The translations under genes and the position numbers were made by a program. From Gammaproteobacteria bacterium (GTDB taxonomy: Bacteria; Pseudomonadota; Gammaproteobacteria; Ga0077536), in the NCBI GenBank assembly GCA_021773835.1, contig JAJFJQ010000015.1, positions 62,001 through 126,000 of the forward strand: a stretch of DNA of 64,000 nucleotides, written 5' to 3'. Below the pieces are notes generated by a model. That model was given only the letters and a program-made list of their open reading frames with translations. It was not told the DNA's origin and made no database searches. Shown one piece after another: positions 16,680 through 19,312 of the stretch. Positions within the stretch are counted from its first letter, which is position 1; each line of letters opens with the position of its first letter.

Positions 16680-17426
16680 TCATCGGCCACCCGACACCTC
16701 GATAAAGCTGCCGGTTGTGTAACTGGCGTCCTCGGATAGCAACCATAAAATAGATTGCGCTACCTCCTCCGCACTGCCCTCCCTTTGCATGGGGATCGCA
16801 CTGCGTAATCGGTCAATACGACCGGGTTCGCCCGAACTTGCATGGATCTCAGTGTCGATGAGACCAGGGCGCACTGCGTTGACCCGAATGCCCTCAGTTG
16901 CCACTTCTTTAGCTAGGCCCAAGGTAAAGGCGTCGATGGCACCTTTTGACGCCGCGTAGTCGATAAACTCATTCGGCGATCCGATCCGCGCTGCAGCAGA
17001 CGAAAGATTGACGATTGATCCGCCCGATCCACCATGCTTGGTCGACATACATTTCACCGCTTCGCGCGCGCATAGAAAACTCCCGGTAATGTTGACAGCG
17101 AACACGCGCTGTAACCGGTCGGCCGTCATCTGCTCAACACGCGACTGCAGCGCGACGATACCGGCGTTGTTAACCAATCCTGACGGTAGGCCGAGTTCCG
17201 CCTTGCAGGTTTCGAATAATCTAACGACGTCTTGATCGCTGGCGACATCACCTTTGACCGCAATAGCCGATTGCCCGGCCGTGGCTACTGCCGCAACCAC
17301 AGCGTCGGCTGCCACACTATCATTGTTGTAGCTAATGCAAACGTCGTAGCCACGCGCGCCGGCAAGGCGTGCGGTCGCTGCGCCGATACCTCGACTGCCC
17401 CCTGTCACAACGACGACCTGACTCAT
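16680..17426 (-). CDS. SDR family NAD(P)-dependent oxidoreductase
   Basis: A classical short-chain dehydrogenase of 248 residues. It has the Rossmann motif TGGSRGIG near the N-terminus, NNAG in the middle and the active-site Tyr-x3-Lys in YAASKGA. The C-terminal GSFIEVSGGR is typical of FabG-like proteins. It is convergent with the nitronate monooxygenase gene and divergent from a secreted hydratase-like gene. The substrate is unknown. It could supply acetoacetyl-CoA reductase activity for PHA, since no phaB is next to phaA, but nothing beyond family membership supports that. Confidence 0.88.
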   Translation of the reverse strand: MSQVVVVTGGSRGIGAATARLAGARGYDVCISYNNDSVAADAVVAAVATAGQSAIAVKGDVASDQDVVRLFETCKAELGLPSGLVNNAGIVALQSRVEQMTADRLQRVFAVNITGSFLCAREAVKCMSTKHGGSGGSIVNLSSAAARIGSPNEFIDYAASKGAIDAFTLGLAKEVATEGIRVNAVRPGLIDTEIHASSGEPGRIDRLRSAIPMQREGSAEEVAQSILWLLSEDASYTTGSFIEVSGGR

Positions 17427-17550: not shown

Positions 17551-18387
17551 ATGAAATTAATCCAACCCGCATTGTTCGCCGTTTGCTGCTTATTCGCACA
17601 CGCGCCACACGCAGAAAACACCCCGGACGCACAGTACATAGCTGAATTATTCTTTGCTGCACAAAAATCAGCAACCTACTTCCCCGACATCATCAAGATC
17701 AATCCCACGCTCGATGAATCGATTTTGTACGAGATCCAGCGACGTTTCGTCGCGCTGCAAGTACAAGATGGATCATCGATCGGCGGTTTCAAGGGCGGTT
17801 TTATTCCTAAAGCGCCGGTCGGCGGCGTCCTCTTTGCGAAAGGCATCCTGCATGGCTCACCGACAATCGAGCGGGGGAAATTTCAAGGGCTGTTGGTTGA
17901 GGCTGAGATCGCATTCAGGCTGTGTCAAACAGTATCAACACCGATCGCCAGCGTCGCCGAACTAAAATCATTCACCTGCGGAATCTATCCAGCGATCGAG
18001 TTACCCGACGCTGCGGTCGCGGACCTTGACCAACTCAAGCAGGACTTCGTGCATCTGCGCCGCTTATTGATCCCAACCAATATGGCCGCATCTCACCTAC
18101 TGCTTGGTGAAGGCGCGGAACCCGGCACGCTCGATCTCGATCGCCTTGATGTAACCGTTGAGCTCGACGGAATACCGATCGGGTTTCGCGATGGCGCGAC
18201 CTCTAAACACGATATTTGGGCGCGCGCATTGTGGGTAATCAACGATTTCGTTATCGCTAACGGCTACACGGTTACGCCGAATCATGTGATCATCCCAGGA
18301 TCACTAACGGGTCTACATCCCGGTAACCCAGGCCGCTACCGCGTAGACTATGGCGAACTGGGAACCGTTGAATTTACGGTTCGCTGA
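17551..18387 (+). CDS. Exported 2-keto-4-pentenoate hydratase-like protein
   Basis: The mature part resembles the hydratase/decarboxylase (MhpD/FAH-like) fold that acts on 2-hydroxydienoates in aromatic meta-cleavage pathways. Visible are IGGFKGG near residue 77, VEAEIAF with the usual metal-binding Glu pair (about 116-121), and IPGSLTGLHP near the C-terminus. Unusually, the protein begins with a good Sec signal peptide (hydrophobic core to about residue 17, likely cleavage after HAPHA), predicting a periplasmic location for a normally cytoplasmic enzyme family. It stands alone between an SDR and a methyltransferase gene. Confidence 0.75.
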   Translation: MKLIQPALFAVCCLFAHAPHAENTPDAQYIAELFFAAQKSATYFPDIIKINPTLDESILYEIQRRFVALQVQDGSSIGGFKGGFIPKAPVGGVLFAKGILHGSPTIERGKFQGLLVEAEIAFRLCQTVSTPIASVAELKSFTCGIYPAIELPDAAVADLDQLKQDFVHLRRLLIPTNMAASHLLLGEGAEPGTLDLDRLDVTVELDGIPIGFRDGATSKHDIWARALWVINDFVIANGYTVTPNHVIIPGSLTGLHPGNPGRYRVDYGELGTVEFTVR

Positions 18388-18478
18388 ATGCCCCAGCACC
18401 ACTGCCAACAGCAATGCATTTGTCAATCTACGACGTGCCATAATCACCGCACCAAAACCTACTAGGAACAGACACTCC

Positions 18479-19312
18479 ATGGCGAAAGTAAGCGAACAAC
18501 ACGAATTCTGGAACGAAGAAGGCGGTGACCGTTGGGTCGAGAACATTGACCGTGTGGAGTCCATGATCTCTAACCTAAGTACCCATCTGCTAGCGCATGC
18601 CGCGCCGAGTGATGGCGAACACGTGCTCGACATTGGTTGCGGCGGCGGTATTACCAGCGCAGCGATCGCGAGTGCCGTTGGATCGCGCGGCCTGGTTTTG
18701 GGCGTGGATATCTCCGAGGTCATTCTTCAGGTCGCAAGAAGCCGTTATGCAGACGTCTCCAACCTCAAATTTGCCAACGCTGACGCCGAAGTGTTCCCCT
18801 TTGCGCAGAGAAGTTACGACCTCATTACGTCCCGCTTTGGCGTTATGTTCTTTCCGGATCCCGACGCAGCGTTCCGAAACATTTACCAAGCCGGCAAACC
18901 TGGCGCACGGATGGTCTTCCTGTGTTGGCGCACTTTGGCGGAGAATCCTTGGATGGGTGCACCCGCGGCTGCCGCATTTACGATACTCACACCACCCGAA
19001 AAACCGGCACCCGGCACCCCCGGGGCATTTTCACTAGCCGATGAACAACGAACCACCAAGATCATGGCCGATGCCGGGTTCACTGATATTAAATTCTCCC
19101 CGGTCGATGAGCCGGTGAACCTCGGTGCAGTCGATCCCGTATTGCATTTCATGGCGGCAATGGGGCCAACAGCGGAGCCCTTAAAAAATGCGAACGACGC
19201 GGACCGCGCGGCAGCATTGGCTGCGATGCGGGCGACATTAGTGGAACACGACACAACCGATGGCGTTGTAATGCCAAGCGCGATTTGGGTAGTCGAAGCG
19301 CGGATAAAGTGA
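18479..19312 (+). CDS. Class I SAM-dependent methyltransferase (UbiE-like)
   Basis: A 277-residue Rossmann methyltransferase. Motif I is VLDIGCGGG (about residue 48), followed by GVDIS and the ANADAE acidic segment. The HEFWNEEGGDRW opening and the RFGVMFFPDP segment are typical of a UbiE/Coq5-like subgroup of unknown substrate. The ATG at 18479 is chosen because an AGGAAC site precedes it and the family-type N-terminus follows; the frame is open for 43 more codons upstream, across the end of the preceding gene. Its role is not set by its neighbours. Confidence 0.85.
   Translation: MAKVSEQHEFWNEEGGDRWVENIDRVESMISNLSTHLLAHAAPSDGEHVLDIGCGGGITSAAIASAVGSRGLVLGVDISEVILQVARSRYADVSNLKFANADAEVFPFAQRSYDLITSRFGVMFFPDPDAAFRNIYQAGKPGARMVFLCWRTLAENPWMGAPAAAAFTILTPPEKPAPGTPGAFSLADEQRTTKIMADAGFTDIKFSPVDEPVNLGAVDPVLHFMAAMGPTAEPLKNANDADRAAALAAMRATLVEHDTTDGVVMPSAIWVVEARIK

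Follow-up and report, generated by a model that had tools for sequence, protein, structure and literature searches.

The 64,000-nucleotide stretch of gammaproteobacterial DNA analysed here (the window) carries on its forward strand an ATG-started open reading frame of 278 codons, for an apparently exported protein of the HpcG/MhpD kind (Table 1). It is preceded by genes for a nitronate-monooxygenase-like protein and, divergently oriented, an SDR-family protein, and downstream are a SAM methyltransferase gene and the gene for a CoxG protein; SDR, like PpsA, PpsR, LOG, HAD and nadC below, is a name presumed from sequence motifs. The longest open reading frame of the methyltransferase begins at 18350, inside the hydratase gene, and its likely start is the ATG at 18479 (region 18350-18481 of the window).

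Table 1. Features of the hydratase-like gene and its flanking genes; positions are those of the window.
Feature	Position	Strand	Basis or remark
SDR-family gene, divergent	16680..17426	-	same place in L040 (same genus)
Gene for exported HpcG/MhpD-like protein	17551..18387	+	ORF, family search, orthologues, fold
Predicted signal peptide, codons 1-21	17551..17613	+	end by homology with L011; heuristic picks A16
K81 codon (HpcG K61 column)	17791..17793	+	Lys in 30/30 leaderless rows
Active-site loop, group I form GGFIPKAPV	17794..17820	+	the 59 other rows and HpcG have nine residues more
E117-A-E119, presumed metal ligands (HpcG E106, E108)	17899..17907	+	alignment
C125, presumed disulfide partner of C143	17923..17925	+	invariant in group I
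C143, presumed disulfide partner of C125	17977..17979	+	invariant in group I
E150, third presumed metal ligand (HpcG E139)	17998..18000	+	alignment
SAM methyltransferase, downstream	18479..19312	+	gap about 90 bp; same order in L040, L050 (genus)

The L011 orthologue is of equal length and 67% identical. The dN/dS ratio against it, a rough figure as dS is near or above 1, is 0.18 over residues 23-278 and 0.33 over residues 1-22, and such values indicate that the reading frame is a real gene under purifying selection. In-frame starts occur at codons 1 (ATG), 8 (TTG), 59 (TTG) and later, the next ATG being codon 178, and thus translation without the leader cannot yield the whole domain. A start past the signal was considered and rejected on this ground and because initiation at TTG codon 59 would, in the structure model, cost two helices and cut a third. 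The original prediction had named homologues starting at an internal methionine past the signal as one case that would overturn it; the window gene offers no such start.

Pfam returns zero matches, even at E 10, and the 7 matches of PF01557 (FAA_hydrolase; gathering score 23.9) in the host genome do not include the window protein. In NCBIfam, HpaH (TIGR02312) is matched at E 6.2e-14, followed by DmpE (1.3e-6) and DmpH (4.5e-5), all far below their cut-offs; curated equivalog cut-offs are missed for TIGR03220 (28 vs 408.8 bits), TIGR03218 (22.9 vs 350.55 bits) and NF008461 (12.2 vs 350 bits). A sequence search of the PDB finds HpcG (2EB4) at 3.8e-9. That HpaH and HpcG head these lists favors the view of the protein as a hydratase of canonical type, acting on 2-oxopent-4-enoate or 2-oxohept-4-ene-1,7-dioate and merely exported, for extracytoplasmic aromatic breakdown, but the HpaH score is 52.2 bits against a cut-off of 351.5.

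An AlphaFold2 model (7 sequences) has a mean pLDDT of 81.3 and a pTM of 0.79, with pLDDT below 50 at residues 1-22 and 85-89. It superimposes on HpcG (2eb4) with Z 28.0 and 2.5 Å over 247 of 262 residues at 23% identity, and on MhpD (1sv6) and NahK (5d2i) with Z 27.6 and 27.0; for the first FAH-fold enzyme beyond the HpcG/MhpD subfamily Z falls to 17.5. The predicted fold, together with the NCBIfam and PDB matches, assigns the protein to the HpcG/MhpD hydratase-decarboxylase subfamily of the FAH fold, a fold common to it and to the 2-oxopent-4-enoate hydratases (MhpD/DmpE) and 4-oxalocrotonate decarboxylases (NahK/DmpH). The more distant FAHD group of oxaloacetate tautomerases/decarboxylases (FAHD1, YisK, OAT1) shares the core domain (6foh, Z 16.7, 186 residues; 8sky, Z 16.7, 181 residues of the model), but here the alignment covers the C-terminal three quarters alone, from model residue 75. 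The HpcG and MhpD alignments run from model residue 22-23 through to the end, with the structure chains entering at residue 1-3, and the leader is therefore an addition before a complete domain; as in HpcG/HpaH, the whole fold is present from residue 23.

Hydratase-decarboxylase enzymes of this kind are known to take part in aromatic breakdown in the cytoplasm, and it was against this norm that a Sec signal in front of a hydratase-like domain had been predicted. The reading frame is as predicted, the domain begins at model residue 23, and the VEAEIAF segment pointed out as metal-binding is found at residues 116-122. The N-terminus reads MKLIQPALFAVCCLFAHAPHA and then E, that is, one Lys, a hydrophobic core free of charged residues (mean hydropathy of the best 10-residue stretch 2.78) and small residues. 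Cleavage could occur after A16 (L-F-A before H), as the signal heuristic chooses, or after A21 (P-H-A before E), by homology with L011, where Pro occupies position -3; the site of the window protein itself appears weak, and that of L011 (S-Y-A before V) is good. The heuristic is lenient, passing 724/3600 whole-protein shuffles as well, and the argument consequently rests on conservation of the leader, not on a single score.

For this comparison, full-length relatives were collected from whole-genome searches, with starts chosen by eye, and sorted into group I (7 rows, the window protein and six orthologues at 42-67% identity), group II (12), group III (8), a mixed set X (8 exported rows of other families, and L138 in addition) and 30 rows without a leader; the fragments L015, L018 and L029 are left out of trees and counts except where they are named. 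The heuristic passes 7/7 rows of group I, 12/12 of group II, 7/8 of group III and 9/9 of set X (35/36 exported rows) and 1/30 of the leaderless, its errors being leaderless L079, which passes, and exported L033, which fails by 0.02. L014, one of the seven group I proteins, lacks a positively charged residue ahead of the core when read from the chosen ATG, and its start is unsure. In three set X proteins (L066, L070 and, judged by eye, L071) the leader ends in a lipobox, and these would be lipoproteins; the heuristic also flags L069, which is left out of that count. The leader thus recurs across the exported groups, as the original prediction had proposed to check, and in every full-length group I protein. 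Periplasmic export of the window protein via Sec is on sequence grounds well supported.

That the hydrophobic N-terminus is instead an uncleaved anchor, the domain still being periplasmic, is unlikely: the poor cleavage site of the window protein and the long, anchor-like leader of L138 would suit it, but the leader is of ordinary length, the core of exported rows is followed by small residues, and L011 has its good site.

The earlier statement that the family is cytoplasmic must be qualified: it also contains a whole exported branch, and the window protein is thus not a single oddity. In a maximum-likelihood tree built with the signal columns removed (L138, L092 and L142 left out), 35 exported and 28 leaderless rows separate with branch support of 100/100. 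The first tree, in which the signal columns were kept, divides the rows likewise (support 99/93), and L138 adjoins the exported branch from outside on a long branch. A single origin of export is the simplest reading of these trees, not proof. Several set X rows are long-branched and their positions in the tree unsure.

Of 36 genomes sampled from the host's family, 9 have group I, in two cases as contig-end fragments, and a contig scan gave 8 loci, of which seven are group I genes already found in the family genomes and the eighth is a 25% match in Myxococcales that has no leader. Among 369 genomes drawn evenly from the class, 40 match a group II/III profile at 1e-25 and at least 13 have an exported member (G000, G011, G012, G018, G072, G079, G121, G123, G154, G195, G308, G353 and G377), as read from N-termini, and nine of these genomes belong to other families than the host; 13 is a lower bound because N-termini were read at 30 loci, with six candidates scored per genome. 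L135 is not counted among the leader readings. Exported relatives occur in nine further gammaproteobacterial families. Of 398 genomes from across the phylum 73 match, and only G121 (263.9 bits) stands clear of the next rows (at most 141 bits; 30 loci read); the window gene itself scores 130.7 on this profile, so that divergent members of the group I type would be inconspicuous in the phylum survey. When plasmids were searched for the window protein, the sole hit was a weak one from Rhodococcus (28.5% over 64%). Among the matches listed for open-licence literature no exported HpcG/MhpD member was found; passages of PMC8508651 name 2-keto-4-pentenoate hydratase only within a STRING list, and in passages of PMC6679007 the hydratase mentioned is aconitate hydratase B alone.

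Mature parts of group I proteins have exactly two cysteines, C125 and C143, both invariant in 7/7 rows, and the spacing between them is identical in the fragments L015 and L018; a C125-C143 disulfide is likely on this pattern. Leaderless rows most often (10/30) have Lys and Asp in the two columns, a pairing that would fit neighbouring positions. An odd number of cysteines after the leader is found in 3/36 exported and 15/30 leaderless rows (Fisher p 2e-4), and in 2/24 and 10/21 (p 0.006) once the rows are thinned at 60% identity, a step that removes relatedness only partly. Cysteine parity would then be a second, independent sign of export. Taken with a leader kept across a deep branch, the lipobox versions and the lack of an internal start, it makes a cytoplasmic protein with a chance hydrophobic N-terminus very improbable indeed, even granted the location for which the family is known and the rate at which shuffled sequences pass the heuristic.

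Active-site columns are numbered here by HpcG, whose E106, E108 and E139 we take to be the metal ligands. The alignment used 28 leaderless rows (L138, L092 and L079 left out), and the final residue counts are over all 30 leaderless and 36 exported rows. The window protein keeps the K61, E106, E108 and E139 columns of HpcG, and K81, E117, E119 and E150 are present in 7/7 group I rows, where they are among the invariant columns. Set X keeps K, E106 and E139 in 9/9 rows and E108 in 8/9 (Asp in L138), and group II keeps K61 and the triad columns in all but L028, which has Arg in place of K61 and His in place of E108. Conversely, Asp at the D164 column occurs in 30/30 leaderless and 0/36 exported rows, Asp at D79 in 20/30 and 0/36, and Arg at R144 in 29/30 and 3/36; the window protein has T176, V90 and A155 at these columns. 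Val or Ile at the D79 column, as in the window protein, is also seen in 8/30 leaderless rows, L009 included.

Group I differs further in the loop that follows the lysine. The spacing from K61 to P78 is eight residues in group I alone and 17 in the 59 other rows and HpcG, and in the shortened loop the T65 and S66 columns have become I and P and the D79 column V. Over the group, T65 is replaced by Ile or Val, S66 by Pro and G202 by Arg, and the P211 column is also changed, so that seven HpcG columns (D79, R144, D164, T65, S66, G202 and P211) are altered in the window protein. The segment after E150 is about six residues longer in group I than in groups II, III and X, and close in length to that of HpcG, where E139 to N165 spans 26 residues against 27 in the window protein. 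We read this pattern as retention of the end of the site that would hold the metal and the 2-oxo acid, and loss of the end that would shape hydration. For a canonical hydratase, the loss of residues fixed or common in the leaderless enzymes and a loop nine residues shorter are hard to accommodate.

One exported clade (L032, L033, L034, L036, L037, L039, L122 and L123) has lost nearly all metal ligands, and the fold of its group III protein L033 is predicted intact; proteins of this clade are likely to be pseudoenzymes or to serve in binding. In group III, Glu remains at the E106, E108 and E139 columns in 0/8, 1/8 and 1/8 rows, with an intact predicted fold (pLDDT 85.7; Z 31.5 against HpcG over 258 residues). 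As this group has the fold of group I by prediction but not the triad, catalysis cannot be the reason why all exported members are kept, and a sister group that has no metal site makes a binding role a serious rival for the window protein too: a non-catalytic periplasmic binding or scaffold protein, whose fold would hold a small acid ligand while the metal site vanishes. Loss of the D79 and D164 counterparts in all 36 exported rows and of R144 in 33 would agree with this, as would the failure to find pathway neighbours of the window gene. Group I, with its three ligands and K81 in invariant columns, argues the other way, and we regard a binding role for the window protein as possible, with somewhat less than a one-third share of our confidence.

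The methyltransferase gene lies 3' of the hydratase-like gene in both other gene-bearing genomes of the genus and the SDR gene adjoins it in one, the contig of the second ending within the gene. Beyond the genus, group I has five loci (L041-L045), at which neither linkage is present and no conserved neighbour points to a substrate; a shared group I operon was accordingly rejected, the two neighbours being confined to the genus. Two loci of a single genus (g9), L044 and L045, have an acyl-CoA synthetase gene adjoining the group I gene; in L043 one of 72% identity lies about 7.6 kb off, and in L042 one of 34% identity about 4 kb off. Cluster c27 resembled a conserved neighbour but was set aside: Pfam matches nothing in the single member scanned, which is taken to be an antisense reading frame.

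Ring-cleavage or hpa genes are also missing among the neighbours read, which separates the window protein from HpaH, and the host has a lower meta-pathway operon elsewhere, on contig C56 (L149:7611-12696). In that operon the genes for a DmpG-domain aldolase and an acetaldehyde dehydrogenase are flanked by two leaderless hydratase/decarboxylase paralogues, and an aldehyde dehydrogenase gene adjoins them. The gene is therefore, as had been claimed, unlinked to a meta-cleavage operon. These leaderless paralogues are the host's own MhpD/DmpE and NahK/DmpH types, from which the window protein differs by export and by the same column changes that set it apart from HpcG. A host already provided with two such enzymes, and a set of neighbours in which no ring-cleavage gene was read, leave the merely exported canonical hydratase with little chance; among the roles originally offered (hydratase, lyase or binding protein) it is the least likely.

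Genes of groups II and III have a location of their own, between ppsR and c10 and near ppsA, in seven loci (L046, L051-L056), with one extra gene before c10 in L055 and L056; c10 encodes a small exported protein without a Pfam match. The host's ppsA-ppsR locus (L159:6608-8135) has PpsA, PpsR and c10 in order, together with two HAD genes, a lipoprotein gene and nadC; a LOG gene was not found there, and PpsR is about 130 bp from c10 with no hydratase gene between. Group I was for this reason rejected as the positional orthologue of groups II and III, the host locus being largely present yet without a hydratase gene. In two other gammaproteobacterial settings, each a different family, a MAPEG gene overlaps or touches an exported FAH-fold gene (L151:7595-8005, L153:7981-8364, L161 and L164), the pair occurring in both gene orders; L162 and L163 have no MAPEG gene within 1.5 kb on either side.

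The reading that we prefer, at a probability of roughly one half, is that the window protein is a periplasmic metal-dependent enzyme that acts on a 2-oxo acid with changed chemistry, and not a meta-cleavage hydratase. The protein would be exported to the periplasm by Sec and its leader cleaved, and the C125-C143 disulfide would form in the mature protein. A divalent metal held by the E117/E119/E150 triad would grip the 2-oxo-acid end of the substrate, and the altered distal site would direct a different step, which may be keto-enol tautomerisation, decarboxylation, C-C cleavage or hydration. The substrate would be a 2-oxo acid encountered in the periplasm, and the protein would work as a stand-alone enzyme, outside any aromatic catabolic pathway.

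Chorismate mutase and cyclohexadienyl dehydratase are unrelated to the present enzymes in chemistry and are not known to share their fold. They provide an analogy alone, as intracellular-pathway enzymes with an exported proteobacterial version (PMC10520331). The hydratase of the 4-hydroxyphenylacetate pathway requires a divalent metal, according to the extract of PMC12718150 consulted. Excerpts of PMC10825186 call enol-keto tautomerisation critical in MhpD and describe oxaloacetate tautomerases of the wider fold on which cations or EDTA are without effect; the FAHD-group members named in them are cytosolic and mitochondrial, with no exported bacterial one among them. The window protein is set apart from HpcG/HpaH by both its signal peptide and its cysteine pair.

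A wider history may be sketched tentatively, and we would sooner doubt than assert it: one old export event would have brought the hydratase fold to the gammaproteobacterial envelope, to serve there in a 2-oxo-acid role, and in some lines the enzyme would be turning into a metal-free ligand-binding protein. On this view catalysis would survive in group I, stabilised by its disulfide, and the metal-free state would be that of group III, next to ppsA-ppsR.

What is new here, as judged from leaders, trees and alignments, is an exported branch of the HpcG/MhpD kind of enzyme, of which the window gene is one member. Pfam leaves the window protein blank, and transfer of the HpaH name would place a catabolic step where none exists. 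Groups I and III form a matched pair, with and without the metal site, by which the enzyme and binding-protein hypotheses may be separated. That the exported branch largely keeps the metal site and drops residues fixed in its leaderless relatives suggests 2-oxo-acid/enol chemistry in the envelope.
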